This document shows, in pieces, positions 1-37,766 of a stretch of 64,000 bases of DNA. The translations under genes and the position numbers were made by a program. How positions within the stretch are numbered: position 1 is the first letter of the stretch; each line of letters opens with the position of its first letter. Where the stretch lies: assembly GCA_014055495.1 (NCBI GenBank), contig WIAG01000001.1, positions 1 through 64,000 of the forward strand, given 5' to 3'. A model generated the notes under the pieces. The model was given only the letters and a program-made list of their open reading frames with translations. It did no database searches and was not told the origin of the DNA. This DNA comes from Nitrospira sp. CR1.2 (lineage in GTDB: Bacteria > Nitrospirota > Nitrospiria > Nitrospirales > Nitrospiraceae).

Positions 1-1706
1 CTTCCCCTCATGGACGAAGCGGAGCGGGCGCAGGTGGTGGGGGCGTGGAACCAGACGGCGCGGGCCTATGCGCGGACGGCCGTGCCGGCGCAGATTGCTG
101 CGGAAGCGGCGCGGACGCCGGCGGCCATCGCCGTGCGGGCGGGCGCGACCACCGTGACCTATGCGGCGTTGCTCCGGCAGGCGTACCAACTCGCCCAGGC
201 CCTCCGCCGCCACGGGGTCGGGCCGGAACGGTTGGTCGCCGTCGCCCTGGACCGGTCGGTCGACCTCGTGGTCGCCCTGCTCGGGACCTGGTACGCGGGG
301 GCCGCCTTCGTGCCGCTCGATCCGTCGTATCCCGTCGACCGCCTCCGCTACATGCTCGACGACAGCCAGGCCGCGCTGCTCGTGACCGACCGCGCGCAGG
401 CCGCACGCTTGGCGCATCCCGGCCCGACCCTCTGCCTGGAGCAGGACCGGGCCCCCCTCGACGGGTATCCCCCGACCCCGCCGGCGGTCGCGACCGTCGA
501 GGCGCAGCTCGCCTACGTCCTCTACACCTCCGGCTCCACCGGGCAGCCGAAAGGCGCCGGCAACAGCCACGCGGGCCTGCGCAACCGGCTCCAGTGGATG
601 CAAGCGGCCTATGGGCTGACGGACACCGACCGGGTGCTGCAGAAGACCCCGATCAGCTTCGACGTCTCCGTCTGGGAATTCTTCTGGCCGCTGATGGTCG
701 GGGCCGAACTGGTCATGGCCGAGCCGGGGGCCCATAAAGACCCGGCCCGGCTGATCGAGCACATCACCCGTGCGGGCATTACCACCCTGCATTTTGTGCC
801 GCCCATGCTGCAGGCCTTCCTGGACCAACCCGGCGTCGAGCGCTGCCGGAGCCTCCGGCAGATCCTCTGCAGCGGCGAAGCCCTGCCGGCGACCCTCCCG
901 CCGCGCGTGCAGCAGCTCCTGCCGGGGGTGGCCCTGCACAACCTCTATGGCCCCACCGAAGCCGCCATCGACGTGACGGCCTGGACCTGTCCCACGCCCC
1001 CGGCGGCGACCGTCCCCCTCGGGCGGCCCATTGCCAACCTCCAGATCTACATCCTCGACCCGCAGGGCGAGCCGGTCCCGATCGGCGTGCCGGGCGAGTG
1101 CTACATCGGCGGGATCGGCGTGGGCCGGGGCTACCATCGGCGGCCGGACCTGACGGCCGCGCGCTTCGTACCGGATCCCTTCAGTGCGCAACCCGGACAG
1201 CGGCTCTATCGGACGGGCGATCTCGTGCGGTACCGGCCGGACGGGACCATCGAGTATCTGGGCCGGTTGGACCATCAAGTGAAGATCCGGGGCGTGCGGA
1301 TCGAGTTGGGCGAAGTCGAAGCGGCCGTGCGGCAGCAGCCGGGGGTGCGGGAGGCCGTGGTGCTGGCGCGGCGGGACGGCCCGGGCGGGGCACGGCTCGT
1401 GGGCTACGTCACGATGGACCCGGACCGCCCTATCGACCCGGCGGCGCTCAAGGCGGCGCTCGCCGAGCGGCTGCCGGAGTATCTGGTGCCGGCGGTGATC
1501 GTCCGGCTGGCGCAGCTGCCGCTGAGCCCGAACGGGAAGGTGGACCGCGGGGCCTTGCCCGCACCGGAAGTCGCGGCACCGCGCACGACGGCCTATGAGG
1601 CGCCGAAGACGCAGCCCGAACAGCAGTTGGCCGCCATCTGGGCCCAGGTGCTCGGCCTCGCCCAGGTCGGCCGCCACGACAACTTCTTCGAACTCGGCGG
1701 GGATTC
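1..1706 (+). repeat. Long direct repeat, copy 1 (Ser A domain and front half of PCP)
   Basis: This stretch matches 6522-8227 at a constant offset of 6521 with no indel. Translations in several frames on both strands are the same over the whole length, so identity is at or near 100% by eye. It ends inside the carrier-protein serine codon (tcg here, tcc in copy 2). The left end is not visible because it coincides with the window start. Confidence 0.95.
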
Positions 1707-1929
1707 GATCACGAGCTTGCAAGTCCTGGCCAAGGCCCATCGGGAAGGCCTCACGCTGACCCCGAAGCAGCTCTTCGAGCACCCGACCGTCGCGTCGGCG
1801 GCTGCGGTCGCGGTGACCGGGAGCGTTGACGCAAGCCCGCCGTCGGCAGACGATCCCGATCCGGGACGGGTCGTGGATGTGGAATTGAGCGACGAGGAGA
1901 TGGAGAACCTCTTGAAGGAGATTGGATAG
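1..1929 (+). CDS. NRPS, C-terminal fragment: serine A domain and PCP (5' end outside window)
   Basis: The frame is open from base 1 and reads LPL before the first Met at 10, so the true start lies upstream; the same residues follow a condensation domain in the next gene. An adenylation domain fills most of the fragment, with [11 protein letters not shown] (A3), YRTGDLVRY and [10 protein letters not shown] (A10). Aligned by eye to GrsA and EntF, the pocket code is DVWHLSLIDK, the classic serine code. A carrier domain follows with FFELGGDSI; the phosphopantetheine serine codon is 1705-1707. The protein ends in a short acidic tail ([13 protein letters not shown]) that may dock with the next synthetase, starting 2 nt after the stop. 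No E domain is present although the PCP has the GGDS form. Bases 1-1706 appear identical to 6522-8227. Confidence 0.95.
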
Positions 1930-1931
1930 GC

Positions 1932-4900
1932 ATGCAGGCGAACAGGACTGAGCAGCGGACGACCGAGCGCGCGGCCGGCGGCGCTCTCAAGAACATCGAG
2001 GCGGTGTATCCGCTCTCTCCCATGCAGGAGGGCATGCTGTTCCATACGCTGATGAATCCCGGCACCGGCATCTACCTGATGCAGAACCGCTACTACGTAG
2101 AAGGAGAGATGGATGCGGTGCTGTTTCGTCGAGCCTGGGAGCAGGTCATCGCGCGCCATTCTATCCTGCGCACCTCGTTCGTCTGGAAGAATCAGAAACG
2201 CCCCCTGCAGGCCGTTCACAAGGAGATCGAGGTCCCGCTCGATGTCATGGACTGGCGGGGGAAAGAGCGGGCGGCGCAGATCGCCGAGCTCGATGCGTTG
2301 TTGCAGCAGGAACTTGCCCAGGGGGTCGATTTTGCCAAGGCGCCGCTCATGCGTCTGCGGCTCATCCGTCTGACCGACCGCACCTATCAGTTCGTCCATA
2401 GCTTTCACCATATCCTGCTCGACGAATGGTGCATCTCTCCGTTGCTGATGGATTTCCTGGCTCATTACGAAGCCTGTGCCCAGGGTCTCGTGTGCCAAGC
2501 GGAGAAGCCTCGCTCCTATCGGGACTATATCGCCTGGCTGCAGAAGCAGGATCTGGACGCAGCGAATCGGTTTTGGCGCGAGTATCTGCAGGGATTTTCC
2601 ACGCCCACCCCGCTTGCTTATGACCGGCCCCCGGAGGGGTTGGCCGACCAAAACGATGACGCAGCGGATCATTGCGTCTACCTGAGCGCGGATCTCACGG
2701 CACGGCTCACGGCTCTGGCCCAACAACATCGCGTGACGGCGAACACCTTTGTGCAGGGAGCCTGGGCCCTGCTCCTCGCGCAGTACAGCGGCGAGAAGGA
2801 CGTGTTGTTCGGCGTGACGGTGGCGGGTCGACCGACCCAACTCGTCGGAGTCGAATCGGTGCTGGGCCTCTTCATCAATACGCTACCGTTGCGCGTGTCG
2901 GTGGCGCCGGATCGTCCGGTCATGGCCTGGTTGAAAGACCTGTTGGCGGAAAACGTCCGCCTTCGCGAGTATGAATATACCCCCCTCATTCACATTCAAC
3001 GCTCGAGCGAGATCCCGCGGGGAGAAGCCCTGTTTCACAGCCTGTTCGTCTTCGAAAATGCGCCCGTGGATCCGGCGCTCTGTGAGGGGCGGATCATGTT
3101 CCGAGCCGAGGAAGAGCAGTATCGCGTCCATACGAACTATCCCATGACCGTGATGGGTTGGCCGGGGAAAGAGTTGGGTCTCAAACTGTCCTATGGCCGC
3201 CGCCTCTTCGATTCGGAAACGGTCCTGCGGATGATCGGCCATTTACAAGGCCTGTTGGAAGCCCTCATCACGCGGCCGGATGTCCGCATCGGCGACCTGC
3301 CCATGCTGGATCGGGAAGAACGCACGCGGCTCCTGTCGTATGGAATCGGGGAGTCGGACAAGCCTCAGGACGATCGTAGCGTTGCCCTGCGATTCGAAGC
3401 GCAGGTGCGGCGATCCCCGCAGGCCATCGCGGTCCGCTGCGGCGATCAATCGTTGACCTATGACGTTTTGAACCGTCGGGCCAATCGTCTGGCCCATCGG
3501 CTGAGGGCGGAAGGAATCGGTCCGGATGCGGTCGTCGCGGTCCTGGATGAGCGCAGCCCAGACCTGCTGACGATGATCCTCGGTTGTTTCAAGGCCGGCG
3601 CTGCCTATCTTCCGCTCGACCCGCACCATCCGGTCGCCCGTGTCGCGCGGCTGCTGGAGCTGAGCCGCGTTCGCGTCGTCGTCGTCTCGCGGCGGCTGAG
3701 TGGCCATCTGGAGCAGGCTTTGTCGATGTTGCCTCAGGCGACACGTCCGCTTGTGGTAGTCCTGGACGATCTCTTGTCGCAGCAGGGGGAGGACCACGAT
3801 CGTCTCGTACCTTCGCGACAGGATCAGTTGGCCTATGTCATTTATACCTCCGGCTCGACGGGCATCCCGAAGGGAGCCATGGTCACGATGGGCGGCATGC
3901 TCAACAACATCGAGAGCAAGGTCAGGTCGTTAGCGATCGGACCCAAGGACGTCATCGCACAAACTGCCTCCCAATGTTTCGATATTTCGGTCTGGCAATT
4001 CCTGACCGCGCTGCTGTGTGGAGCCACCACCCATATCCTGTCCGATGAGCTGGTACGAGAGCCGTCGCGACTGCTCACACATCTGGACACATCCGGCATC
4101 ACCATCTACGAAGCGGTGCCTGCCGTGTTGCAGGCCCTCCTGGACGTGGGCGACTCTGAGGACGCGCCACCGGTCCTTGCTCCTCTGCGCTGGGTCTTAC
4201 CGACGGGCGAGGCGCTGCCGCCGGCCCTCTGTCGCCGCTGGTTTGAGCGCCACCCGAAGATCCCCCTCATGAACGCCTATGGACCGGCCGAATGTGCCGA
4301 CGACGTCGCCGTCCATCCCATCCTGGCGGCGCCGGCTGAAGATTCCGTCCGGGTTCCGATTGGGCGGCCGATTCAACGCCTGCGCCTCTACATCGTCAAC
4401 CGGTTGTATGAACCGGTGCCGGTCGGCGTCTCCGGCGAACTGTGGATCGGAGGAATCGGCGTCGGCCGCGGATACCTGGAAGATTGCGCCAGAACGGCAG
4501 AGGCGTTCGTGCCGGATCCGTTCCGAAATGAGCCCGGGGCACGGCTGTATCGCACCGGCGATCTGGCTCGTTACCGGCCGGACGGCACGATCGAATATGT
4601 GGGGCGTCTGGACCATCAGGTCAAGGTGCGGGGGTTCCGGATCGAACTCGGTGAGATCGAATCCTGCCTGACCGATCAGATCGAGGTCCGTGAAGCGGCG
4701 GTCATCGTCCGTGAAGATCGCCCCGGAGACCGGCGATTGGCGGCCTACGTCGTGCCGCAGGCCGGCCGATCGATCGATAGCGACAGGTTGCGGACCGCGC
4801 TTCAGGCACAACTCCCCGAGTACATGGTTCCCTCGATTGTGCTCACGCTGGACACCTTGCCGCGCACGCCGAACGGCAAGGTGGACCGGCGAGCCTTACC

Positions 4901-7900
4901 TGCTCCCGATCTGTCCGGTCTCGACGAAGCCACCTACGTCGCGCCGCGTACCGTCACGGAAGAGTTGCTCGCCGCTATCTGGGCGGACATTCTCGGTCTC
5001 GAACGGGTGGGGGTGCGGGACCAATTTTTCGAGCTGGGCGGACATTCCCTCCTAGCCACCCAGGTGGTCTCTCGCATCCGGAGTGCCTTTCACATCGAGC
5101 TTCCGTTACGCGCGGCCTTCGAATGCCCGACCGTTGCCGATTTGGCCCGGACCGTCGATCGGGTTCGTGCGGAAGGACAAGGCAGGCAGGTTCCTCCCTT
5201 GACGGCATCTCGCCGGGAGGGGCCGGCTCCCTTGTCTTTTGCACAGCAGCGACTCTGGTTCCTGTCGCAACTCGAACCGGAGAGCTGGCTCTACAACCTC
5301 TCCTTCGGGCTCCGGCTCCGTGGCCCGCTCGATGTGGATGCGTTGCGTGCGAGTTTCGAAGTCGTGGCGACGCAGCACGATCAACTGCGTACCTGGTTCC
5401 TTCGCGTCGAGGGTCGCCCGGTGCAAGTCAATCTGGATTCACCGGCCGTGCCGTTTGATCGGCAGGTTGCCGCTCCGGCACCAGGCTTGTCTTTAGAGCA
5501 ATACGTCGCAGAGCTGGCCGGTGAGGAGGCCCGAAGGCCGTTCGTTTTGGAAGGCGGCCTCCTGTGGCGCATCAAGCTGGTGCAATTACGCGACCAGGAT
5601 CATCTGTTGCTCGTCACCCTACATCATGCCATCGCAGATGGGTGGTCGTTGAATGTGTTGTTGGCGGACATGCTGGCGGCCTACGGCGCGTTGCGTGAGG
5701 GGCAGCCCGTGCCTCTGACCCCTCCGGCGGTGCGATACGCCGATTATGCACGGTGGCAGCGTGAGTGGCTGAAGGGTGACGTGCTTGAGCGTGAATTGGA
5801 CTATTGGAAGCAGACCCTTGCGGGAGCCTCTGCGATGATCGGCCTGCACGCCGACCATCCTCGTCCTACCGTCCAGACGTTCCGTGGCGCCCGCCGTAAT
5901 TTCACCGTTTCTCCGGATGTCGCCGCAGCCCTGCAGGGGCTGAGCCGGAGACAGGGCGTGACTCTGTTTATGACGCTGCTCGCGGCGTTTCAGGTGTTGT
6001 TGCATCGGTACAGTAGAGATAGGGACTTGTCGATCGGGACGCCGATCGCGAATCGTACGACCGTCGAGACGGAAGGAGTGATTGGCTTCTTCGTGAACAC
6101 CCTCGTACTGCGGACCGACGTGAGCGGTCATCCGCGTTTCGTCGATCTCCTTGAGCGCGTGAGGGAAACGGTGTTGGGCGCACAGAGTCATCAGGATGTG
6201 CCGTTCGAGCAAGTCGTCGATGCGCTTAAGCCGGATCGTGATCTGAGCCATGCTCCGCTCTTTCAAGTGATGTTCGCGCTGCAGACCCTTGGCCGGGACA
6301 TGGTAGAGATTCCGAACCTTACGGTCGAACCGGTGGAGGTCGATCCCGGCAGTGCGAAATTTGATCTGTCGTTGGAAATGACGTGGGCACCGGAGGGCCT
6401 GACCGGTTTCTTCGAATTCAATCTGGATCTGTTCGAACCGGCCACGATCGATCGCATGACTGGCCATTTCCTCACCCTGCTCGCAGGGATCGTGGCGGAG
6501 CCCCAACGGAAGCTCGCGGCGCTTCCCCTCATGGACGAAGCGGAGCGGGCGCAGGTGGTGGGGGCGTGGAACCAGACGGCGCGGGCCTATGCGCGGACGG
6601 CCGTGCCGGCGCAGATTGCTGCGGAAGCGGCGCGGACGCCGGCGGCCATCGCCGTGCGGGCGGGCGCGACCACCGTGACCTATGCGGCGTTGCTCCGGCA
6701 GGCGTACCAACTCGCCCAGGCCCTCCGCCGCCACGGGGTCGGGCCGGAACGGTTGGTCGCCGTCGCCCTGGACCGGTCGGTCGACCTCGTGGTCGCCCTG
6801 CTCGGGACCTGGTACGCGGGGGCCGCCTTCGTGCCGCTCGATCCGTCGTATCCCGTCGACCGCCTCCGCTACATGCTCGACGACAGCCAGGCCGCGCTGC
6901 TCGTGACCGACCGCGCGCAGGCCGCACGCTTGGCGCATCCCGGCCCGACCCTCTGCCTGGAGCAGGACCGGGCCCCCCTCGACGGGTATCCCCCGACCCC
7001 GCCGGCGGTCGCGACCGTCGAGGCGCAGCTCGCCTACGTCCTCTACACCTCCGGCTCCACCGGGCAGCCGAAAGGCGCCGGCAACAGCCACGCGGGCCTG
7101 CGCAACCGGCTCCAGTGGATGCAAGCGGCCTATGGGCTGACGGACACCGACCGGGTGCTGCAGAAGACCCCGATCAGCTTCGACGTCTCCGTCTGGGAAT
7201 TCTTCTGGCCGCTGATGGTCGGGGCCGAACTGGTCATGGCCGAGCCGGGGGCCCATAAAGACCCGGCCCGGCTGATCGAGCACATCACCCGTGCGGGCAT
7301 TACCACCCTGCATTTTGTGCCGCCCATGCTGCAGGCCTTCCTGGACCAACCCGGCGTCGAGCGCTGCCGGAGCCTCCGGCAGATCCTCTGCAGCGGCGAA
7401 GCCCTGCCGGCGACCCTCCCGCCGCGCGTGCAGCAGCTCCTGCCGGGGGTGGCCCTGCACAACCTCTATGGCCCCACCGAAGCCGCCATCGACGTGACGG
7501 CCTGGACCTGTCCCACGCCCCCGGCGGCGACCGTCCCCCTCGGGCGGCCCATTGCCAACCTCCAGATCTACATCCTCGACCCGCAGGGCGAGCCGGTCCC
7601 GATCGGCGTGCCGGGCGAGTGCTACATCGGCGGGATCGGCGTGGGCCGGGGCTACCATCGGCGGCCGGACCTGACGGCCGCGCGCTTCGTACCGGATCCC
7701 TTCAGTGCGCAACCCGGACAGCGGCTCTATCGGACGGGCGATCTCGTGCGGTACCGGCCGGACGGGACCATCGAGTATCTGGGCCGGTTGGACCATCAAG
7801 TGAAGATCCGGGGCGTGCGGATCGAGTTGGGCGAAGTCGAAGCGGCCGTGCGGCAGCAGCCGGGGGTGCGGGAGGCCGTGGTGCTGGCGCGGCGGGACGG

Positions 7901-9803
7901 CCCGGGCGGGGCACGGCTCGTGGGCTACGTCACGATGGACCCGGACCGCCCTATCGACCCGGCGGCGCTCAAGGCGGCGCTCGCCGAGCGGCTGCCGGAG
8001 TATCTGGTGCCGGCGGTGATCGTCCGGCTGGCGCAGCTGCCGCTGAGCCCGAACGGGAAGGTGGACCGCGGGGCCTTGCCCGCACCGGAAGTCGCGGCAC
8101 CGCGCACGACGGCCTATGAGGCGCCGAAGACGCAGCCCGAACAGCAGTTGGCCGCCATCTGGGCCCAGGTGCTCGGCCTCGCCCAGGTCGGCCGCCACGA
8201 CAACTTCTTCGAACTCGGCGGGGATTCCATTCTCGGGCTCCAGGTGATTGCCCAGGCCAAGGAAGTCGGCCTCTCCTTGACGCCTCGGCAGCTGTTTCAG
8301 CAACAAACGATCGAAGCGCTGGCGACGGTCGTGAATCGGGAGTCGGCCGCGGCGCCGACGATCCAGGCGGAGCAGGGATTCGTGTCGGGAACCCTGCCGA
8401 TGACGCCGGCTCAACAGTGGTGGTTCGAGCAGCGATTGTCCGAGCCCCATCATTGGAATCAATCGCTCATGCTGACGATCTCCGAATCGCCGGATCGGGC
8501 CAGGTTGGCGAGCGCGCTCGGCCTCCTGCTGGAACGACACGATGCGCTGCGTATGCGCCTCGATGTCTCGAACGGCCCGACGGCGCGGATCGAGGCCCTG
8601 GTCCCATCCGAAGAACTCCTGACGTGCGTCGACCTGCGCGAACTGTCGGAGGACGCCATCACCAACGTCATCGCCGGTGAGGCCGAACGGTGCCAGCAGA
8701 GCCTGCATCTGGAGCAGGGGCCGCTGTTTCGAGCGCTCCTGTTCGACCTCGGGCCGAGGCGGCCGAGCAGGCTCCTGTTGATCGCGCACCATCTCGTCGT
8801 CGACGGGGTGTCGTGGCGCATTCTCCTGGAGGATCTTGAGCGGGCCTATCTGGCCGGCGAGGAACAGCAGGCCGACTTTCCGCCCAAGACCACCTCGATC
8901 AAACAGTGGACCGAAGCGGCACAGACGCTGGCGAAGTCCGGGGCCCTGTCGAGCGCGGCGGCTTTCTGGAGCGCGCAGGACCAGCCCGGAGCTCTGTCGT
9001 TACCACTCGACGATCCGACGGGAGCACGAACCGAGGCTTCCGCGGAGACCTGTCACCTTTCGTTCAGCCGTGAGGAGACGGAGGCCCTGTTGCGGCAGGC
9101 GCCGGCCGCCTACAAGACCCAGGTAAACGATCTCCTGTTGGCGGCCTTGGTCCAGACGTTCCACCAGTGGACGGGTGAGGATCGTCTCCTGCTGGACCTC
9201 GAGGGCCATGGTCGCGAGTCGGTCGTTCCGGGCACCGATCTGTCGCGGACGGTCGGCTGGTTCACCAGCATGTTTCCACTTCTCTTACGACGTCCGGACG
9301 GCTCGACTGCCGACATCGTGAAGGGCATCAAGGAGCAACTGCGTGCCATCCCATCGGGCGGGGTCGGATACGGCCTCTTACGGTATCTCGCCCATACGCC
9401 GGAGAGCGAACGCCTCCGACATCAGACCGCCCCGCAGGTTTGCTTCAACTATCTGGGTCAACTCGACCGGGGCGGTCCCGAACAGACCCTGTTCGGATTG
9501 GCGTCGGAACCCACCGGGCGTGAGCACGGTGCGTCGAACAGGATGCGGTACGAACTCACCATCAACGCCGATGTCACGGACGGTCGCCTCACGGTGATGT
9601 GGAGCTACAGCGGTGCGCGGTTCAGGAGGGCGACAGTCGAGATGCTCGCGGCGTCATACCGTCGATGCCTCTGCGAATTGATCGCACATTGTTGCGCGGC
9701 GGACGCGGGCGGGTATACCCCGTCGGATTTTCCGGACGTACAGATCGATCAGGATGCCCTCGACAACATTCTAGAGACCATGGAACGGAGCCATGCGCGA
9801 TAA
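1932..9803 (+). CDS. NRPS, two modules: C-A(Dab-like)-PCP-C-A(Ser)-PCP-E
   Basis: This 2623-aa synthetase starts 2 nt after the previous stop. Domain order by approximate residue: C (20-450; [21 protein letters not shown]), A1 (480-985), PCP (Ser in GGHS near 1038), C (1100-1530; [19 protein letters not shown]), A2 (1530-2045), PCP (GGDS, Ser 2099) and an epimerization domain (2155-2600; [32 protein letters not shown]). The A1 code is DIWELTADDK, recalled as a 2,4-diaminobutyrate code from Pseudomonas peptides; the acidic pocket fits a basic side chain. A2 has the serine code DVWHLSLIDK, so the module should deliver D-Ser. The first C motif has DE in place of DG. A2 and the front of its PCP belong to the 1706-bp repeat and look more GC-rich in third positions than their flanks. 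Confidence 0.96.
6522..8227 (+). repeat. Long direct repeat, copy 2 (Ser A domain and front half of PCP)
   Basis: This is the second copy of bases 1-1706. It covers the C-A linker, the full adenylation domain and the carrier domain up to the second base of the phosphopantetheine serine codon (8226-8228). After that the sequences differ ([13 protein letters not shown] here, [13 protein letters not shown] in copy 1). The sharp right boundary fits recent gene conversion or intragenic duplication. Confidence 0.95.
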
Positions 9804-12800
9804 ACCACAGATCGAAGCCATGTACTATCTGTCCCCGCTGCAGCAGGGACTGCTGTTTCACTGTTTGGCCGATGCGTCGGCCGATCCGTACTTGTATCAG
9901 TATGCCTATCGCCTCTCCGGAGACTTGCGGCTCGACGCGTTCGAGCAGGCCTGGCAGTCGGCGGTGGAGCGCCATGCGGTGCTGCGTACCGCGTTCGTGT
10001 GGGAAGGCGTGGAGAAGCCGCTGCAGGTCGTCCGTCGGCAGGTGCGCCTCCCGATCGAGCGGCATGATTGGCGCGGGGTTCCGGAGGAAGAGCAACAAGC
10101 GCGGTTCGCCTCGCTGCTTCAACGCGATCGCGCCGCCGGTCTCGATTTGCTACGGCCCCCGCTCATGCGACTGCATGTGATCCGCAGGGGCGAGCGTGAC
10201 TGGATCTTGATCAACAGCCACCACCACCTCCTCCTGGATGGGTGGAGCATGGCGATCTTGCTGCGTGACGTCGTGCTGGCGTATGAAACTCTGGCGCAGC
10301 GAGAGCGTCCTCCGCTTCGAACGCCCCGGCCCTACCGCGACTACATTTCCTGGGTTCATCGCCAGGATCTGACGCAGGCCGAAACCTACTGGCGTGGCAT
10401 GTTGGCCGGATTCGATCGGCCCACGCCGATACCGATCGAGGCCCCGTCGCACGGGTCATCCCCTGAGTCCCTGCCGTTCGCGGAACAAAATCTCCGGTTC
10501 TCAACAGAGCAGACTGAGGCGCTGCAGGCCTTCGCCAAGCGGAGTAGGGTCACCGTCAATACGGTTCTGCAAGGAGCCTGGGCTCTCTTGCTGCATCGCT
10601 ACAGCGGCGCGCGAGACCTGTTGTTCGGGGCGACCGTGTCGGGACGCACGCCCGAACTGGCCGGCGTGGACGAAATGGTCGGACTCTTTATCAACAGTCT
10701 GCCGGTGCGTGTCGCGATTCGGCCGGACCAGAAGCTGGCGGATTGGTTGCGCAGCCTGCAGGATCAGAATGCCGCGTTGCGCCAGTATGAATGGACTCCG
10801 CTCAGTCACATCCAACGGTGGAGCGACGTTCCCAACGGGACGCCCCTGTTCGACAGCCTCATGGTCTTCGAAAGCTATCCCGAGCCTGAGGACGATGGGA
10901 TTCCGCCGTCGCTCGTCATCGCGCCGTTGGCGGCGCGATCGAGCGGTGGTTATACCCTGACGCAGGGACGGAACAATTATCCGATTTCGTTAATGGTGGA
11001 GCCGGGCCGTGAGTTGTGCCTGATTGTCTGTTATGCCCATCGACGCTTTGCGCATGCGGCGATCACACACATGCTGGGCCATCTGGAACGACTCTTGGTT
11101 GCGATGGTCGAGGCCCGAGATGCGTTACTCGGCAACATGGCCCTGACGACGGAAGGGGAGCAACGGCAGCTCGTGGAGTGGAATGAAATCCCCGAGTCTG
11201 GCCGTCTGGAGGAGGCTTGCATCCATGACCTGATTGCCGCTCAGGTGAAAGCGGTGCCTGAAACGGCGGCGGTCGTGACCAAGACCGAGCGGGTGACCTA
11301 TCGGGAATTCGACCGTCGGGCAACCAGGTTGGCGCGCTATCTCCTTGCGCAGGGTGTGAAGCAGGAAGAGCGGGTCTGTCTCTGCCTGGACCGGTCCTTG
11401 GATCTGGTCGTCGCCCTCCTCGCGGTGCTGAAAGCCGGCTGTGCCTATGTGCCGCTGGATCCGACTTATCCTCGCGAGCGGCTGACGACGATGGTCGCCG
11501 ACAGCCAGGCGCGCCTGATCATCACCCGAAGCGACCAGTCGATCGGCGTCGACGATGGCGCCGCACGTCTGATTCTATTGGACCTTCACGCGGAGGACAT
11601 CGCCGCATGCGGTGACGAGCCGCTTTCGGTGGGTGTCTTTCCGAGCAACCTCGCCTACGTGATCTATACCTCGGGTTCCACCGGAAGCCCCAAGGGCGTG
11701 GCGGTGGAACACCGGCAAGTCGCAGCATACGTACAGGCGATACTCGGACTCGCGCCTGTGGCCGCCGGGACCGGCATGGCCGCCGTCTCGACCGTGGCCG
11801 CCGACCTTGGCAACACGGCCCTCTTCGGCGCGCTCTGTTCCGGGCGCACGCTTCATCTGTTCCCGACGGAGGACGGTTTCGACCCGGACGCGATGGCCGC
11901 TGCCATGCATGAGCGCCAGGTCGAGGTCCTCAAAATCGTGCCGAGCCATCTGCGTGGACTTCTCCATGCGGCCCATCCCGAGCACGTGTTGCCCACCCGT
12001 TGCCTCATTCTTGGGGGCGAGGCGCTGCGCCGCGACCTCGTCCGCCAGGTCCGTCAATTGGCACCAGACTGCACCATCGTCAACCACTATGGTCCGACCG
12101 AAACGACGATCGGGGTATTGGCTCACGTGCTCGAGGACTCAGCCGACGACATCGAGCGGGATGTGCCGATCGGCCGTCCCTTCTCCTCCGTCCAGGCCCA
12201 TGTCCTCGACGGCGATGGGCAACTGGTCCCGGTCGGTGTGCCGGGGGAACTCTATATCGGCGGGCCGCAAGTCACGCGGGGGTATCTCAACCGACCGGAG
12301 GCGACGGCAGAGCGATTCATTCCTGATCCCTTCAGTGGTCGCGAGGGAGCCAGACTCTATCGAACGGGCGATCGCGCGAAACGGCAAGCCGACGGAACGG
12401 TGGAGTTTCTCGGGCGGGTGGACCATCAGGTGAAGATTCGCGGGTTCCGCATCGAGCTGGGCGACATCGAAACCCAACTGCGGCGGGAGGCCGATGTCTC
12501 CGATGCGGTCGCGATCCTGCGCGAACAAGCCGACGGCACCCAACAGCTCGTCGCCTATGTGACCGGTGCCTCGACACTGGATACGGCCGGTCTGCGAACC
12601 AGGCTCGCGCGGTGTCTTCCGGATTACATGGTGCCGCAGCACGTTGTGCGACTGGAGGCCTTTCCCTGGACCCCAAACGGCAAGCTCGACCGGGCAGCTC
12701 TGCCGGACCCTGGCCGGGAGGACTCACACGCCATGCCCGCCTACGTGGCGCCGCGCAATAGGACTGAGGAGATCCTGGCGGGAATCTGGCAAACCGTGTT

Positions 12801-15800
12801 GCAGGTTGACCGGGTCGGCGTGCATGACAATTTCTTCGCGTTGGGTGGCGACTCGATCCGCACGCTACAGGTCATTGCGCGCGCGAACCGTGAAGGGGTG
12901 AAACTCACGCCCAAGCAATTGTTCGAACATCAAACCGTGGCGGCGGCGGCAGCCGTGGCGCTGGTGAAACAGACGGCGCCGGCCGAAACCGATCGGACCC
13001 AGCCGGGACCCACCGGTTGGGCCCAGACGAGCGCAACCCCGGTGTCCACGGCGCCGGCCCTGCCGGTCTTCCCGCTGACGGGGTTGGCATCGGAGGCCTT
13101 GGCAGGACTGCGAGGGGATTGGGCGGAGATCGAAGATTGTTATCCCTTGTCGCCGATGCAGGAAGGGATGCTGTTTCACACGTTGTTGAATCCCGGGTCC
13201 GGCATCTATCTCATGCAACAGTGTTACGCCTGGGACGGGCGGTTGGATCGGGACGCCTTCGGACGAGCCTGGCAATGCGTCATCGATCGACATCCGATGC
13301 TCCGTACCTCCTTCATGTGGAAAGACCTACCGGCGCCATTGCAGCTGGTCCATCGGCTGGTCAAGGCCGAGGACGTGATTCAGGATTTGGATTGGTCGGA
13401 AATGGGCGACGACCAACAGCAAACCCGTATGCGGGAGATGCTGGAGGAGGAATTGCACGAGGGGCTGGATTTCGACCGGGCTCCGCTGATGCGCATCCGT
13501 CTCGTGCGGCGCGGACCTGATCGCTACGCCATCGTGCGGAGCTTTCACCATATCCTGACCGACGACTGGTGTTTCTCGTTGCTGATGATGGACTTCCTCA
13601 CCCACTACGATGCCTGCCTGCAGGGACGGGTGCCGGACCTGCCTAAGCCCGCCCCGTACCGGGACTACATCGCCTGGCTGCAACGGCAAGACCAGGATGC
13701 GGCGGAACGGTTCTGGGGGCAGGAGTTGACCGGCTTCACCACGCCGACCCCGCTGGGGATCGACCGGCTGGACCCGGAGAGTGCCACCACAGGGGCCGTC
13801 AGCGCCGTGTTCATGGAACTGTCGCCGTCCGTGTCGGAGCAGCTGCGGACCTTGGCTCAGCAGCATCATGTGACGCCGAACACCTTCCTGCAAGGAGCCT
13901 GGGCCATTCTCTTGTCGCGATATAGCGGAGAACGCGAGGTGTTGTTCGGTGTGACCGTCGCAGGACGACCGACCGACCTGCCGGGCGTCGAGGACATTGT
14001 GGGCCTCTTCATCAACACGCTGCCGTTGCGTCTGGCCATCTCGCCCGATCTCCCGGTGATGTCCTGGCTTCGGCACCTGCTGGCGGAAAACTACCGCATC
14101 AGGCAGTACGAATACGCGCCGCTGGTGCGCGTCCAACAGTGGAGCGAGGTGCCGTCGGGGCAAGCGCTGTTCCGCAGCCTGCTGGTCTTCGAGAACGCGC
14201 CCAAAGATGCGCGGCTCGGCGAAGAGCGTGAGGATCGCTCCCTCTCGTACGATCAGGACCGGGTGCATACGAACTATCCCATGACCGTCGTCGGATATCC
14301 CGGCGAGTCGATGGGCGTGCGCCTCTCGTACGACCGGCGCCTCTTCGAGCATGCCGATGTCGCGCGCATGCTCGACCATCTCAAGCGATTGCTCGAATCG
14401 ATGGCGGCGACCCCCGATGCGGCTATTTGTGACTTGCCGATGCTCGATGAGGAGGAGCGCCGACGCCTGCTCGTGGACTGGAACCGCTGCGATCGCGCTG
14501 AGTGGGTCTCAGGGGACTTTGCCGCGCTCTTCGAAGCGCAAGTCGAGCGAACACCGTCGGCCGTGGCAGTGCAGTTGGGTGACGAGCGCCTGACCTACGA
14601 GGAACTGAATCGCGCTGCCAACCGGATCGCCCACGGGCTGCGCAAACGGGGCGTGGGAGCGGACTCCATCGTCGCGCTCTTGGATGACCGCGGGCCGGCG
14701 TTGTTATCGATGATCGTGGGGGTGTTGAAGGCCGGTGGCGCCTATCTCCCGTTGGATCCCCATCACCCAGCCGAGCGGCTGGTCCAGGTCCTCTCCACCG
14801 CGCCTGTGAAGTCCCTGATCCCCGGGAGCCGCCATGCGGCCTTGGCTGTAATGGTCGCAACCATGGTGCCGGGGGGATCTACTCCGGACCTTGTGTTGAT
14901 GGAGGATGTCTCAGGAGAGGCGTTCGAAGACGGCAACCCTCCGCCGCTCCCGGCACAGCAGCGTCTGGCCTATGTCATGTTCACGTCCGGGTCGACCGGT
15001 ACTCCTAAGGGCGCGATGGTGGAAACTCGGGGCATGATGAACCACCTGACCAGCAAGATCCCGACGCTGGATCTCGGTCCCTCGGACGTGGTTGCGCAGA
15101 CTGCGTCGCAATGTTTCGATATTTCGGTGTGGCAGTTCCTGACTCCGCTCCTGTGCGGGGCTCGGGTGCAGATCGTTCCCGATGAGGTGGTCCGAGATCC
15201 GCAACGGCTATTGGCCGAGGTCTCGGCGTGCCGGGTCTCGGTGCTGGAGGTGGTCCCCTCGTTGTTGGCTGGACTCCTTGACGGGGTCCCGCCGGCGTTG
15301 CCGCACATGCGCTGGTTGCTGCCCACGGGAGAAGCCCTGTCGCCGGCCCTGTCCCGCCGGTGGTTTGCCCGCTATCCGACGATTCCGCTTCTCAACGCAT
15401 ACGGCCCCGCCGAATGTTCGGACGATGTGGCCCTGGCCTGTATCCGTGAAGCGCCCGCAGAACGCGAGACCAGCATGCCGATCGGCAGGCCGATCACGGG
15501 TGTACGGTTATATGTCGTGGATCGCCATACCGAGGTGATGCCGTCCGGGGTCGCCGGCGAACTCTGTGTCGGCGGTGTGGCCGTGGGCCGCGGGTATCTT
15601 GGTGATCCCGCAAGAACGGCCGAAGTGTTTGTGCCGGATCCATTTGGGTCCGAGCCGGGCAGCCGGCTCTACCGGACCGGTGATCTTGTGCGTTACCGGC
15701 CAGACGGGGTCTTGGAGTTTGTGGGGCGACGGGACCACCAAGTCAAAATCCGGGGATTCCGCATCGAGTTGGGCGAGATCGAGGCGCGGCTGGCCCAGCA

Positions 15801-18768
15801 TCCCGGAGTGGAGCACTGTGTGGTCGTGGTCGCCGATCTGCAACCGGGACACAAGCAGTTGGCGGCCTATGTGGCGACAACGGCCTCGTTGAGCGCCGAT
15901 CGGCTGCGGTCGTTTCTGCGCCGAACGCTGCCGGAGTATATGGTGCCGGCGACGTTTGTGTTGCTTCCGGCATTGCCGCTCACGCCGAACGGAAAAATCG
16001 ACCGCAAGGCGCTGCCCAAACCGGATGCCGACCGTGTGGCAGACGATTTCGAGCCGGCGGCTACACCCACGCAGGACCTTGTCGGGGGGATCTGGGCCGA
16101 GATTCTCGGTCTGGATCGCATCGGCAGGCGCGATCACTTTTTCGAACTGGGAGGCCATTCACTCCTGGCCACTCAAGTCATGTCCCGCGTGCGTACCACG
16201 TTCCAAATCGAACTGCCGTTACGGACATTATTCGACCATCCCACGGTAGAGGCTTTTGCCGCGGCCATCGATCAAGCGGTGACGCAAGGCGACGAGACGC
16301 ACGTGCCTCCGCTCTTGCCGATGCCGAAGACCGAGGCAATGCCGCTCTCCTTCGCGCAGCAGCGCCTCTGGTTCCTGGCGCAAATGGACCCGGACAGCGG
16401 GGCCTACAACTTGCCGTTCGCCCTGCGCCTGGGCGGCACCGTGAATCATCACCTGCTCGAGTGTAGTTTTCTCGCCCTGATTCGCCGGCATGAAACGTTG
16501 CGCACGACCTTTCCCGCAGTGGACGGAGAACCGCGGCAGGTGATCGTCGAGGCGGATCACTTCCCGATCCACATCGAGGACCTGGCAGCCTTGTCGGAGT
16601 CCGAGCGGACGGCGACCATCAGCCGGTATGTGGAATCAGAGGCGCATGAGCCGTTTCGCCTCGATCGAGACCTGCCGATCCGTGCGCTGCTCCTCCGGGT
16701 GGGCGACGACGCGCACATCCTGCTCGTCACGGTGCACCATATCGCGGCCGACGCCTGGTCGTTGGCGGTGGTGACTCATGACGTCGCGACCCTCTACAAC
16801 GGGCTGGCACAGGAGGCGGATGGCGAGCAGGTCCCGTCGAACGATCACTCGGGAGCGCTCCTGCCTCCGTTACCGATCCAGTACCGCGACTTTGCCCTGT
16901 GGCAACGGCAATGGCTCCAAGGTCCCGTGCTTGAACGGGAGATCAGGTACTGGAAGCAACGATTGGGGTCGGCGCCGCCTCAACTGACGCTTTCGACCGA
17001 TCACCCACGGCCTGATCGGCAAACGTATCGCGGCGGTCGAGTTGCGTTCCACGTACCGGGAGAGCTGCTCGAACCGCTACGACGAGTCAGTCGGCGGGAA
17101 GGCGTCACCTTGTTCATGACGCTGCTGGCCGCCTTCAACGTGCTGTTGTCTCAATTGGCCAAGCAGAGCGACATCCTGGTCGGCACCGATGTCGCCAATC
17201 GCAACCGTGCCGAGACCGAACCGCTCGTGGGGTTTTTCGTCAATCTCCTGCCCCTGCGCACCGATCTGAGCGGGAATCCCTCTTTTCTTCAGCTTTTGGG
17301 GCGGGTGCGCGAGACGGCCTTGGGCGCCTATGCGCATCAAGATGTGCCGTTCGAAAAGATCGTGGAGTCGCTCAAGTTGCAGCGGGATCTCGGAAGGAAT
17401 CCGCTGGTGCAGGTGTTGTTCGTACTTCAGAACGTGCCGCCTCCGTCCCTGCAGTTGTCCGGAGTGGATGTCGAGTCGCTGGAATTCGAACATGAGGTGT
17501 CGCGATTCGACGTGGGGTTGTTCATGGAAGAAACGGAGGATGGTTGCGCGGGTCTGTGGAAGTTCAGCCGCGACTTGTTCGAGCTCGAGACGATCGCCGG
17601 ATGGACGGATCGTCTTCTGGGATTGTTGCGGCAGATCGGACTCTCGCCCGAGCGGGGGATCGACACGCTGGGATGGGAGGATGAATGGACACAGGAGGCG
17701 CAGACCATGGATCAGCAGCAACGAACCGAGCAACGGCTTCAGCGATTCAAGGCGATCAAGCCGAAACCGATCGCCTTGGCCCAACGCATATTGGTGGCAG
17801 GTCGCCCGCTCCTGGAGGGCCATGCGATGCCCTGGATCTATACTCCGTCGGTGGAAGATGTCGATCTGGCGGGATGGGTCAGGGAACATCGCAGCGGATT
17901 GCAAGGTGAACTGCTGCAGTCCGGCGCACTATTGTTTCGCGGGTTCGCGCTCAAGACGGTGCAGGATTTTGAATCCGTCGCGCAAGCCTTCTGCCAGAGT
18001 CTTTTCGGCGAATATGGCGATCTTCCCCGGGAGAAGAGCGGCCGCCACGTCTATGGATCGACACCCTATCCGCCGGACAAGCCCATTCTCTTCCACAACG
18101 AGAGTTCCCACATGCATCGGTGGCCGCAGAAGCAGTTCTTCTTCTGTCTCCAGGCGGCGCAGGAGGGCGGTCAGACCCCGATCGTGGACGGCCGCCTGAT
18201 GCTCAAGGGGCTTCGAGCCGATCTGCGCCAGCGGCTGCGCGCCAAACAACTGATGTACGTCCGCAACTTCCTGCCCGGCGTGGATGTCAGCTGGCAGGAC
18301 TTCTTTCACACCACCGACAAAGCGGCGGTGGAAACCATCTGCGCCGCGAACGGCATGGTCTGGCAGTGGTTGGAGAAGGAGGGCTTGCGCACCAAGCAGA
18401 TCTGTCCCGCTATCATCGAGCATCCCGATACGGGCGAGGCGGTGTTCTTCAATCAAATCCAGCTGCATCACGTCTCCTGTTTGGAGCCGGCGGTGCGCGA
18501 GTCCCTCTTGTCGATGCTCGGTATCGATTCTCTGCCGCGAAACGTCTACTACGGTGACGGTTCAGCGATCGAAGACGAGGTGGTCGATGAGATCGGCGCC
18601 TTGTACGAGCGGACCGCGGTACGGTTTCCGTGGCAGGAGGGGGACCTCATCATGCTGGACAATATGCTCGTGGCGCATGCCCGAGATCCCTTCGTCGGAC
18701 CCAGGAAAATCGTGGTCGCCATGGGCGACATGATCGCTCAGTCCGCCGTTCACTCCATGACGTCGTAA
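9793..18768 (+). CDS. NRPS, C-A(Asp)-PCP-C-A(Dab-like)-PCP-C plus fused TauD/SyrP-type hydroxylase
   Basis: This 2991-aa protein overlaps the previous gene by 11 bp, suggesting coupled translation. Order by approximate residue: C (8-440; [10 protein letters not shown]), A1 (480-975), PCP (GGDS near 1020), C (1115-1540; [22 protein letters not shown]), A2 (1575-2075), PCP (GGHS near 2120), C (2180-2600; [19 protein letters not shown]), then an Fe(II)/2-oxoglutarate dioxygenase (2670-2985). The A1 code DLTKIGHIGK matches the Asp signature; A2 is DIWELTADDK (Dab-like). In the dioxygenase the likely iron ligands are H2768 and E2770 (HNE) and H2962 (LVAHARD), with R2971 for 2-oxoglutarate. HNE in place of HxD is the pattern known in SyrP-like aspartyl beta-hydroxylases. 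The hydroxylase sits after the C domain that feeds the Asp module of the next protein, its likely substrate; the Asp of A1 is an alternative. Confidence 0.95.
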
Positions 18769-18777
18769 GGGGGAGGC

Positions 18778-21700
18778 ATGCAACAGGAGATCGAGATTGA
18801 AGGATTACGACTCTCGCCGCAACAGAAACGGCTCTGGCTGTGGCAGCAGCAGGGACATCTCGTCCACGCAAGAGGCGTCGTCATGCTGGATGGCGCATTC
18901 GACGAGGAAGCAGTGTTGGTGGCCCTCCGCCGGGTGATCGCTCGCCACGACAGCCTGCGGATGACGTTTTACCGTCAGCCGGGCATGAAGGTGCCGTTTC
19001 AGGTCGTCCATGAGGCGGGGGGCCTGGACTGGCACGTGCTCGATCTCCGTCATCTCCCCCGGGATGGCGAGCGTGAAGAGGCTCTGGAGCTGGTTGCCCA
19101 ACGCAAGGACGCGCCCGATTGGGAACGAGGACCACTCGTGCGCGCCATCTTCTGTCGATGGACGGAGACTCATACGCGAATCCTCCTCGACGTACCGGGT
19201 CTCTGTGCCGATGCCAAGTCACTGTCGAACGTGGTCGCCGAACTGAGCCGTGCGTTGGACGGAGATCTCGGCGACGAGGGAGACGACCCGGTTCAATATG
19301 GACAGTTTTCCGAATGGCAGCATGAGCTGATCGAAGCGGAAGAGGCGGCCCAGGGACGAGCCTGGTGGTCCCGTTGCAACAGTGCCGGTCTGGACAGTCT
19401 GGTCTTGCCGTTTGAACGAGAACCTTCTCTCACTGGGTCCGATGCCGGGAGGCGTCCGATCCATCGCGCGCTCTCCGCGGCCGAGATCCGGCGGTTGCGG
19501 GACCGTGCCGCCGACGCACAGGTCTCTCTGCCTGTGCTGTTATATGGTTGTTGGTCGGCGCTGCTCTCTCGCATGACCGGGGCGCGCGAGTTGGCCTGCT
19601 GGTGGCGATCCGACGGCCGTCCGTATGAAGAATTGTCCGAGGGGATCGGACTATTCGAACGGTGGCTGCCGCTTCCCTTCCGGATAGAAGGCAATATGGC
19701 ACTTCGAGATCTGTTGTCGATGCTGTCCCGTCAACAGGCGCAAGCAGAAGACTGGCAACAATATTATGCCGGTCGGTCGGAAGACGAAGAACTGCAGGCG
19801 GTGAGGGATGCGATCGGCTTTGAGTATAGCCGTCGCCCCATGCCTCACCGGACGACAGCCGGTGTCATCGCGTTTGCGGAGGGTTCGTTGTGTGCCGAGC
19901 CCTTCAAATTGCGCTTGGCTTGTTTGGAAAATGCGACGGGCCTCACCATGAACTGGCACGTCGACCGGGAACGGATACCAAACGAGATGATGGAGACACT
20001 GGCGGATCGCTACGTCGAATTGCTCCGCGGCCTCCCGGAGCGGCTCGACATCACAATCGATGAGTTGGAGATCGTCGGGACAGGGGAACGGATCAGACTG
20101 ACGCGGGAACTCAACCGTACCGGTCACTCTTGCCAGTCCACCTCTTTGATGCACAGCCTGATCGAGGCCCAGGCGAAACAGCATTCCGGGCACACGGCCC
20201 TGGTTGCCGGCGGTCAGCGCCTGTCCTATGACGCGCTCAACCGCCAGGCCAACCGGATTGCGCAGGGACTCAAGCGCCGCGGCGTGACCATCGGGGACCG
20301 CGTCGGTCTCTGCATCGATCGTTCGGCGGACATGATCGTGGCGATGCTGGGCGTACTGAAAGCCGGTGCCGCCTACGTACCGATCGATCCGGCCCATGCC
20401 GCGGTGCGGCTGGCTCCGCAGATGGCCCAGAGTGGCGCGGCGATTCTCCTGACCCGATCGGCCACGGACCAACCGCTTCCTCGATTCGATGGTGTGATAC
20501 TGAATCTTCCCGAGGATGTGGCAAACGAACCAGACGACGATCTCGACCTGCTGTTCCCGCCGGACGAACTCGCGTACGTGATCTACACGTCAGGATCGAC
20601 CGGCCAGCCGAAAGGGGTTGCCGTCTCTCATCGTAGTCTTGCCAACTATACGTCCGCCATCACGAGACGATTGGGGCTGGCCGGCCGGTTGCAGTTTGCC
20701 ACCGTTTCCACGCTGAGCGCGGACCTGGGCCACACTGTCATCTTCCCCGCGCTCACCTCCGGCGGCTGCCTCCATGTGATCGACTATGAAACCGCAACTG
20801 ACGGACGGTCGTTCGCGTCGTATCTCGCCACACATCCCATCGATGTGTTGAAAATCGTGCCGTCCCATTTCAAGGCTCTGTTGGCGACCAGCGAAGGAGA
20901 GGTGGTCTGGCCGCGGGCCTATCTGATCTTCGGCGGAGAAACGCTGTCGTGGGAGTTGGCCGATCAGGTCCGGCGGCAGGCGAGTTGTGCGGTACTCAAC
21001 CACTACGGTCCGACGGAGACGACCGTCGGCGCTACCGTATCCCTCGTGACCGACGATCCCGCACCCCGCATGGCCCGCAGCGTGCCCATCGGGCGTCCGA
21101 TCGACAATTTGGAGAGCTACATTTTGGACGAGCTCCGGGAGCCGGTGCCAATCGGCGTGGCAGGCGAACTCTATCTGGGCGGTCAAGGCCTCGCGTGTGG
21201 CTATTGGAATCAACCGGACCGCACGGCTGAGCGATTTGTGCCGAATCCCCATGCGTCCGAGCCCGGCGCGCGCCTCTATCGGACGGGCGATCGTGCCAGG
21301 CGTCTCCCGGACGGATCGATCGAGTTTCTCGGTCGACTGGATCACCAGGTCAAGATTAGAGGGTTTCGGATCGAACTTGGAGAAATCGAAACCGTGTTGC
21401 GAGAACATCCTGCCGTGCAGGATGTCGTGGTCATGGTTCGGGAAGACAGCCAGGGCGAATCGTACCTCGCAGCCTATTATGTGGCACGAGGGGTGGAGCC
21501 GGATGGCCGGGCCATCCAGGACTTTCTCCGCTCCCGTTTGCCGGACTATATGGTGCCGACTGCTGTGATCGCGTTGTCGGCTCTCCCTCTATCGGCCAAC
21601 GGCAAGGTCGATCGTCGAGCGCTCCCTAAGCCGGAATGTGACGGACAAGACGTTCGGCGATACGTGGCCCCCGCTACGCCCACGGAAACCATTCTGGCGG

Positions 21701-24700
21701 GTCTCTGGACCGACGTGTTGAAGCGAGAGGGGGTCGGTGTGCAGGACAATTTTTTCGACCTGGGTGGACATTCGCTGCTCGCCACGCAAGTCATGTCTCG
21801 GTTACGAAACGCGTTTGGGGTGGAGTTGCCGTTGCGAACGCTCTTCGAATCCCCCACGATCGCGCAGCTGGCTTGGGTGGTCGAGACGGCGCGGGGCTTG
21901 GAGCGGGAAGAGCAGCCGCCACCGATAACCGCGATCGCGCGAACCGGACCTATCCCACTGTCGTTTGCACAACAACGGCTTTGGGTGCTCGCGCAGTTGG
22001 AACCGGACAGCACCGCGTACAACATTCCGATTGCCCTGCGCGTCAAGGGGGCGCTCGACGTCGCGGCCTTGGAATGCAGCTTCCACGAGGTTGTCGGTCG
22101 TCACGAAGCCTTGCGCACCAGGTTCCACAGTTTGAACGGGGTCCCGATGCAGGTGATCGGGCCGTCCCGGCCGTTCACGATTCCGCTCATCGATCTGCAA
22201 CATCTTCCGGAGGAGCGCCTCGAGCAGGCAGCCACACGCTTGGCGGCGGTGGAAGCCGAGCGTCCGTTCGATCTTCGGTACGGGCCGCTCTTCCGGGTCA
22301 GCCTGATTCGACTCCGTCCCCATGAGCACCTCCTGTTGCTGACGTTGCACCACATCGTCTCGGATGCCTGGTCCGCGCATGTGCTCGTCCAGGAGTTGAC
22401 CGCTCTCTATGCCGCTGCGGTCGAGCGGCGCCCGGCTTCATTGCCCGACTTGCCGTTGCAATACGCCGATGTCTCGCAATGGCAGCGAGCGTGGCTGAGC
22501 GGCCCGGTCCTCGAACGGGAATTAGGATTCTGGAAAACCATACTGGGCGGCGACTTGCCGGTCCTCACCCTCCCGACGGATCACCCCCGGCCCGCCGTTC
22601 AAACGTCACATGGCGCGATGGTCACCGCGACCATCCAGCCGGCTCTTGCCGGGGACCTCAGGGCAGTGAGCCGCCGCATGGGTGCGACTCTCTACATGAC
22701 GCTGCTGAGCGCATTTTTCATCCTGCTGGCTCGCATCGCCGACCAGTCGGACCTGATCGTCGGGACGCCCATCGCCAACCGGACCAGAAAGGAAACGGAG
22801 GGGCTCATTGGCTTCTTCGTCAACACGCTGGCGATTCGCACGCGGCTGTCGCAGGTCGCCACGATCGCCGACGTGATCGCGGCTGTGCGCGAAGCCTGCT
22901 TGGAGGCCTATGCGCATCAGGAAACCCCGTTCGAGAAAGTCGTGGACGCAGTGCAACCGTCGCGCGATGTGAGTCGTTCGCCGATCTTTCAAGTCATGTT
23001 CGATCTGCAGAACGCGCCCGTGGTCGACTTGCAGGTGAGTGGGCTGGAGTTTGAGGCCATCGAGATCGAGACGACGACCGCGAAGTTCGACCTCTCTATG
23101 ACGGTGCAGGAAGCGAACGACGGGTTGATTGTGGGGCTCGAGTACAACACCGATCTCTTCGAGGCCGCCACGGCGACCAGGCTGTTGCATCAGTATGAGC
23201 TGATTGTGGCCTCGTTGGTTCGAGACGTCCGCATGCCGGTCGGGTCGATCGCCTTCTTGACCTCCGGGGAACGGCAGGCCCTATTGTCGGTGAATCGGGC
23301 CGGCCTGTCGTTAGTGCCTGCGCTGCCGCTGGCGAGGCTCTTCGAGCAGCAGGTGGAGCGGACGCCGGAGGGGACTGCAGTGGGGCTGGAGGGCCATACC
23401 TTGTCGTACGCGGCGCTCAACGCGAAGGCCAATCGGCTGGCGCGCTGGTTGCGGAGTCGGGGCGTGGGGCCGGAAAGGCGAGTGGGCGTCCGGCTCGAGC
23501 GTTCCGTGGAGCTGGTCGTCGCGCTGTTGGCGATTCTGAAGTCCGGCGGGGTGTATGTCCCGATCGACCCGGCGTACCCGGCCGAGCGACAACGACAGAT
23601 GGCACTCGATGCAGCGCTGGACCTCTTGTTGATCAGCGGAGCCATGCTGCCGGGCGATCACGAGTTCTCCATGCCGGTCCAGGCTCTGGACGTGCTGGAT
23701 GGCGACCTGCAGGCCATGGATGACGACAATCTGTCTGGTTCGTATTCTCCGGAACAAGCCGCCTATGTGATTTACACGTCCGGCTCGACCGGCAGACCCA
23801 AGGGGGTCGTGGTCTCCCAGGGCGCATTGTCCCGGCACCTGCAAACCATCGCGCCTGCCTACCACCTCGGTCCGACCGATCGAGTGTTGCAGTTTGCCTC
23901 GATCGGCTTCGACGTGGCGGGCGAGGAACTGTGGTCCGCTCTCTTGGCCGGCGCGGCGGTGATGCTGCAACCCTGCCGCCTGTTCGATTCGCTTCCGGAG
24001 TTTTCCCGGTTTCTCGAAGAGCAACGCGTGACGGTCGCAGGGGTTCCCGCTTCGTATTGGCATGAATGGATCGGCGCCATCGAGAGGGGTGGGTGTGCCG
24101 CGCCACAGTCCTTGCGGCTGGTGATCGTGGGCAACGAGCCGGTCGTCTCCTCCGATCTGGGTCGATGGCGGCGGCTGGTGGGTCGGACGGTCCGGTGGCT
24201 CAACGCCTATGGTCCGACGGAAACCACGGTGACCGCCAGCCTGTACGAGCCGGCGCCCACAACGACGGGGAGCGAGTCCCGGACGGTCCCGATCGGGCGC
24301 CCCTTGGCGGGTCGTACGCTCTACGTACTGGACCGAGACCTCGAGCCGATGCCTTTTGGGTCGCCGGGAGAGCTGTACATCGGAGGCGAAAGTCTGGCCC
24401 GAGGGTATCTGGGGGATCCCACGCGCTCGGCTGGGGTGTTCGTGCCGGATCCGTTCAGCGAGAGGCCGGGAGCGCGCTTATATAAAACGGGAGACCGGGT
24501 TCTGGTTCGGCGCGATGGTACGATCGAGTTTCTCGGTCGAGTCGACGACCAGATCAAGTTGCGTGGATTTCGCATCGAACCGGGTGAGATCGAAGCGTGT
24601 TTGCGCAGACATGCCGATGTGCGGGCGGCCTTTGTGCGCCCACAAACGGACGCGGAAGGACGGACCAGACTCATCGCCTATGTGGCGCCCCGAGAGGCCG

Positions 24701-29193: not shown

Positions 29194-29212
29194 GCTGGTG
29201 TGGCCTGGGGCG

Positions 29213-37647: not shown

Positions 37648-37720
37648 AACGACTCCTTCACGTTGTCTCACGGCTCTGTTCTCCACTAACCATGACGCCG
37701 AGAGCAGAACGAAAAGGATG

Positions 37721-37739
37721 TCGCGCGCGCGATTTTTTT
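37721..37739 (+). other. CG palindrome followed by seven T in the fecR-receptor gap
   Basis: TCGCGCGCGCGA is followed by TTTTTTT on the + strand, in the 119-nt gap between fecR (ends 37767) and the receptor (starts 37647). It resembles a + strand terminator stem, but no + strand gene ends here. It may instead be part of the promoter region of the receptor gene. Confidence 0.35.
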
Positions 37740-37766
37740 CGACAACAATGAGCCGGAAGGCCGGCG

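Follow-up and report, generated by a model that had tools for sequence, protein, structure and literature searches.

Concerted evolution of polyketide synthase and nonribosomal peptide synthetase (NRPS) domains through internal recombination is established, and domains of one cluster, including the adenylation (A) domains of daptomycin, A54145, and CDA, can be closer to each other than to their orthologues (Medema et al. 2014, PMC4256081). Homogenisation driven by gene conversion also blurs duplication history (PMC9205934). Exchange of A domains within a genome drives peptide change, with a hotspot at the junction of the condensation (C) and A domains (Baunach et al. 2021, PMC8097286; Calcott et al. 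2020, PMC7486941), and in the former survey the natural events were for the most part smaller Acore swaps, with the native linker and the interface between Asub and the carrier, or thiolation (T), domain left in place. Recurrent homogenisation of paralogues in bacteria has been described by Wang and Chen 2018 (PMC6053082), for whole genes of core complexes, in a text that mentions neither nonribosomal enzymes nor GC content. In the palindromes of the primate X chromosome, conversion maintains pairs at >99% identity, and raised GC is documented (PMC8981503). Here we describe a 1,706-bp block that occurs twice in the NRPS genes of a Nitrospira close to N. defluvii (Nitrospira sp. CR1.2), at the left end of the window; the window covers the initial 64 kb of contig C150 (185,613 bp).

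The Nitrospira block differs from each of these systems. Relative to the clusters of PMC4256081, it has edges that are base-precise across species, a copy in a third module, a composition test, and two fixed positions shared by six or more homogenised genomes. The linker, the whole A domain, and half of the T domain travel together, as in the single exception (BP18) of the survey in PMC8097286. On the right the block ends within the FFxxGGxS motif, which also contains the cut of the XUT III/IV exchange units (PMC12668312), but the Nitrospira joint is natural and recurrent, whereas the XUT joint was chosen by design. Unlike the X-chromosome palindromes (PMC8981503), it is bacterial, protein-coding, and 1.7 kb long, and no meiosis is involved. 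A literature search joining GC-biased conversion with NRPS found no relevant paper; concerted evolution of assembly lines is already known, and the test of GC bias appears to be new.

The serine block in the window and in related genomes

Direct base comparison of the two copies in the window (Table 1) gave 0 mismatches and 0 indels. The first difference, at position 1707, lies at the last base of the codon for the carrier serine in NFFELGGDS (TCG in copy 1, TCC in copy 2), as a preliminary description had claimed in reporting an apparently perfect 1,706-bp match that ends inside this codon. The copies also disagree at the base just before the block (C versus G), which places the block start at the first base of the window. 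Outside these limits the copies are unrelated, with 113 of 200 bases differing upstream and 111 of 200 downstream, and the probability of a chance match of 1,706 nt within 64 kb is negligible. In protein terms, the block comprises a C-A linker, a complete A domain, and the leading half of a T domain. As expected of a serine A-T half-module, the domains AMP-binding, AMP-binding_C, and carrier accompany the A-domain code DVWHLSLIDK, read by alignment; from established tables, we take this code to be the textbook one for serine. It is present in both copies, which upholds the two serine sites proposed earlier. The loop between the copies is what goes missing or is assembled wrongly upon recombination or collapse of the copies.

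Genomes are labeled here with G000 as the source genome and G001 as N. defluvii (FP929003.1). Two block positions, 6,521 to 6,536 bp apart and with orthologous flanks, are present in seven Nitrospiraceae genomes examined (G000, G001, G002, G005, G006, G015, and G058), the last of which belongs to another genus. Over block positions 1 to 1706, copies 1 and 2 differ at 0, 2, 4, and 7 positions in G000, G001, G002, and G006, respectively, and they are 100% identical over 1,708 bases in G015 and over 1,711 in G058. Identity within these six homogenised genomes is thus 98.5 to 100% over 1.7 kb, versus mostly 71 to 90% between genomes. Blocks of different genomes are 78 to 90% identical within the genus, except for G002 with G005 copy 2 and G001 with G034 (both 94%), and Nitrospira blocks are ∼73% identical to that of G058. 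The flanks keep to their own positions and show no homogenisation: those of the two copies are about 40 to 45% identical, while orthologous flanks are 68 to 97% identical between genomes. In the tree, the copies of each homogenised genome cluster together, and a clade of all first copies was rejected (approximately unbiased test, P = 1.6e-7). Since the copies group by genome and not by position, the architecture is old and its homogenisation recent and repeated. Of the earlier proposal, recent gene conversion or a swapped-in A domain, conversion therefore stands, but a single recent swap does not, as the two-copy architecture predates the species split.

The edges of the tract are shared as well. 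Identical sequence starts at block position 1, 2, 8, 7, and 2 in G000, G001, G002, G006, and G015, respectively (in G006 the start becomes 79 when later mismatches count), and ends at 1706, 1709, 1706, 1709, and 1709. Assembly overlaps in G034 place the edges at 2 and 1710, giving ranges of 1 to 8 and 1706 to 1710 for the five same-genus genomes with both copies placed, together with the G034 overlaps. These shared edges would follow from the lack of homology outside the serine pair, exchange stopping where similarity stops. The right edge lies within FFxxGGxS of the T domain, between the D and S of NFFELGGDS in the serine pair and between NFFELGG and the following H or D in a second pair, from G032. 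The G032 pair (L207, reverse complement, 2464 to 4171 and 5656 to 7361) is an independent homogenised A-T half-module pair with the code DIWELTADDK; it lies in adjacent modules, runs from TWNKTG to NFFELGG, and is 99.2% identical over 1,708 bases. A literature search on this code found nothing, and no residue was assigned to it.

We hold it to be very probable that the block is a paralogous serine A-T half-module pair in which recurrent gene conversion, through ectopic homologous recombination, preserves near-identity, a case of concerted evolution. Recurrence of conversion in each lineage that keeps both copies is supported, with the exception of one lineage (G005) that has a freshly imported copy. 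On the proposed course of events, an old event would have put the same unit of C-A linker, A domain, and half T domain into two modules. With nothing outside the unit similar enough to pair, each later exchange would halt at the same two edges, as the edges themselves suggest. Heteroduplex repair favouring G/C may then keep partnered copies at about 96% GC in their silent sites, a step with indirect but tested evidence. Copying of the block into a third module would be an occasional by-product, and loss of the loop through crossing over between the copies a probable one.

Several lineages depart from the two-copy state. In G015, the last module carries a third block, at the position held in the window by the last A domain of the terminal NRPS gene. 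This block shows no difference from copy 1 over block positions 1 to 1568; all 13 differences lie at 1569 to 1680, and the module retains its own GGHS carrier motif. The tract at 1 to 1568 would be consistent with nonreciprocal transfer. G056 (L200, about 7758 to 10289) has a single block, joined upstream to the copy 1 flank and downstream to the copy 2 flank. This single-contig genome yielded no close loop orthologue, and a two-module deletion by recombination between the copies is likely. In G003, position 2 holds another A domain (DIWELTADDK), leaving the block without a partner. In G005, copy 2 is 94% and the epimerization (E) domain behind it 96.5% identical to G002, whereas the adjoining parts side with G000. 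The G005 segment (contig C4, about 81211 to 84000, L109) looks like a horizontal replacement whose breakpoint falls close to where the A domain begins.

Silent-site composition with and without a partner copy

The GC bias of bacterial conversion is disputed, mostly since it has been inferred from genome-wide correlations. The block offered a local comparison, its higher GC content at third codon positions (GC3) having been remarked on already: in the window we measured 0.905, versus about 0.70 to 0.81 in the flanks. Paired blocks had a GC3 of 0.85 to 0.91, versus 0.66 to 0.81 in 67 other A domains of the first set of clusters; the G058 block had 0.88 versus 0.64 to 0.73, and a pair from G010, in a third genus, that is 87% alike had 0.74 and 0.77 versus about 0.66. 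Unpartnered serine-type domains had values of 0.69 to 0.77 in this third genus and 0.69 in G003 (G003_3). At four-fold degenerate sites, GC content (GC4) was 0.93 to 0.97 in blocks and 0.80 to 0.85 in flanks, despite 20 to 40% four-fold divergence between most genomes. Polarised four-fold changes from G/C to A/T, relative to swaps between G and C, numbered 23:75 in partnered lineages, 14:4 in G003 after partner loss, and 53:31 in flanks. Fisher tests on these counts gave P values of 1.8e-5 and 8.8e-8, and 0.28 for G003 against the flanks; the counts are small, they include one partner-loss lineage, and their independence is limited by shared ancestry. G034 was counted as partnered, its assembly graph containing the block used twice.

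Beyond Nitrospira, 16 sets of converted A-domain tracts from other bacteria were compared with the remaining A domains of their genomes. The GC3 excess was positive in 11 of them, and one set (G193) may represent a single domain retrieved twice. For 10 of 11, the excess was larger inside the tract than outside it (Wilcoxon P = 0.0098). The six sets from Sorangium were near zero, five of them slightly negative. We regard the wider effect as suggestive only. The first eight unrelated loci had all been positive, a result that the larger sample lowered to 11 of 16. The G032 pair (GC3 about 0.87, versus 0.55 to 0.66 in downstream flanks) was set aside as independent support for GC bias, as part of its unduplicated upstream sequence is also GC-rich.

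Whether GC-biased gene conversion in bacteria has the strength to maintain a coding repeat of 1.7 kb at about 96% four-fold GC while a partner is present, with relaxation upon its loss, is in our judgment evenly balanced. The best-surviving alternative, which accepts concerted evolution but takes the high GC3 as a relic of a GC-rich donor or as codon selection on serine A domains, is possible but rather doubtful. It draws on the high GC3 common to all blocks of the clade, on the partly GC-rich upstream sequence of the G032 pair, and on the single-copy block of G056, which is still GC-rich. However, old foreign composition is insufficient, because GC4 stays high while four-fold sites diverge between genomes, and the unpartnered serine domains, G003_3 among them, are lower. 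Moreover, codon-use selection would be indifferent to a second copy and biased repair would not, so the return of G/C-to-A/T substitutions to the flank spectrum after partner loss points to biased repair. The same relaxation of GC3 in the partner-loss lineage contradicts the idea that the raised value is simply the mark of a foreign A domain.

Selection, assembly, and recent duplication as alternatives

Frequent neutral conversion, arising from the closeness and identity of the copies, could be joined by selection that purges divergent copies to retain one serine specificity, and the serine code is indeed conserved in both copies of each decoded pair. We think this unlikely, since the silent sites are homogenised too and, in most genomes, other pairs of the cluster that share a code (three DIWELTADDK domains) have escaped homogenisation.

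The assembly of the source genome needed separate attention. The left block edge is the start of contig C150, and contig C124 (40,012 bp) terminates in exactly the first 127 nt of the block, with nothing beyond. Because a 127-base overlap is the signature of a k=127 de Bruijn assembler, the block would be a single graph edge passed twice, and the exact identity of the copies in this genome was therefore imposed by the assembler. The "perfect" match of the preliminary description thus holds for every assembled base, but as a property of the genome it is forced by the assembly method. The contig order C124, block, loop, block, and remainder is supported. The assembly hazard foreseen in that description materialized in G034, where the loop lies on a separate 5,066-bp contig (C2, L153) with exact 127-nt overlaps at both ends, and the main contig (C5) is seemingly short by two modules. 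This junction is a misassembly, and a two-module deletion by real recombination, considered for G034, was dropped once the loop was found. In G014, contigs end inside the block. In the UBC2 chromosome (G004/G026, CP092081.1), only block positions 1581 to 1706 were found, at 4144662 to 4144787 and 4229401 to 4229526, and one of these 126-base remnants sits 12 bases from the deposited chromosome end; the block repeat seems to be where the chromosome was opened.

Such an assembler could in principle have duplicated one serine block or merged two diverged ones, as graph cleaning merges small sequence differences, and the exact contig overlap, the G034 misjoin, and the broken G014 contigs all fit. 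An artefact predicts that the repeat is missing from independent single-contig genomes, yet G001, G015, and G058, three of the six homogenised, hold both copies at equal spacing with 0 to 2 differences, and the real mismatches in G006, G001, and G002 indicate that the copies there are not one sequence used twice; we consider it highly improbable. A single recent duplication or swapped-in A domain confined to this lineage, which the zero differences and the GC3 step at the edges would suit, is least credible of all and was discarded once relatives showed the identical architecture, with the same spacing and edges, orthologous flanks, and blocks 10 to 29% different from this one.

Some observations do weigh against recurrent, GC-biased conversion as we propose it. 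The exact identity of the copies in the source genome is imposed by the assembler and may not be true of the genome itself. The G005 copies are just 80% alike, although copy 2 looks imported and homogenisation not yet reached. The GC bias depends on only one partner-loss lineage, the G056 block has a GC3 of 0.90 in single copy (through recent loss or collapse), and the GC effect is weaker outside Nitrospira.

Gene neighbourhood and significance

Table 1. Coordinates of the block copies and of neighbouring features in the window
Feature	Positions	Strand	Remarks
Block copy 1 (R1)	1..1706	+	C-A linker from a 19-residue sequence (letters not shown), serine A domain, T domain to second base of carrier serine codon
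Loop X	1707..6521	+	Between copies: end of first T domain, gene boundary, C-A-T-C
Block copy 2 (R2)	6522..8227	+	Base-identical to copy 1
Upstream NRPS gene, 3' end	1..1929	+	A-T then stop; 5' part (C-A-T-C) on contig C124
NRPS gene	1932..9803	+	C-A-T-C-A(R2)-T-E; 13-residue E domain motif (letters not shown) at 8787
NRPS gene	9793..18768	+	Three C-type domains, two A-T modules, C-terminal TauD-type hydroxylase
Terminal NRPS gene	18778..25950	+	Two modules and thioesterase; last A domain about 23260-24970
TonB	30849-31889	-	Within dense siderophore-uptake block
TonB-dependent receptor / FecR pair 1	35089-37998 / 37767-38768	-	
TonB-dependent receptor / FecR pair 2	39537-42005 / 42114-43136	-	
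TonB-dependent receptor / FecR pair 3	45118-47670 / 47720-48721	-	
PepSY_TM	50001-51227	-	Within dense siderophore-uptake block
TonB-dependent receptor / FecR pair 4	51447-54035 / 54205-55215	-	
TonB-dependent receptor / FecR pair 5	56402-59125 / 59163-60149	-	

Joined, contigs C124 and C150 give a full assembly line of C-A-T-C-A(block)-T, then C-A-T-C-A(block)-T-E, then the hydroxylase gene and the thioesterase gene. Judged from sequence, this line suggests a peptide siderophore with beta-hydroxy-aspartate, because of the TauD hydroxylase, Asp-like codes (DLTK...), the serines, the E domain, the thioesterase, and the downstream pairs of TonB-dependent receptor and FecR genes. The minus strand at 35089 to 60149 carries five TonB-dependent receptor genes, each adjoining a FecR gene. 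A resistance-nodulation-division efflux permease and adaptor (26077 to 30292, minus strand) directly follow the NRPS thioesterase gene and are possible exporters of the product. A literature search on Nitrospira siderophores found no relevant paper.

Genome mining can be misled by clusters of this kind. Because of the repeat, modules disappear from public assemblies (G034) or contigs break (G014 and probably UBC2), and predicted peptide lengths are therefore unreliable. The fixed edges point to a recombination unit reused by nature, with its right edge at the joint that engineers recently picked for swapping NRPS parts. Some related genomes have the block with a conversion partner and others without, so that nature would switch the effect on and off, and it can be measured at silent sites. 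If GC-biased conversion holds true, pairs of NRPS modules would let biased conversion in prokaryotes be tested in natural on and off states.
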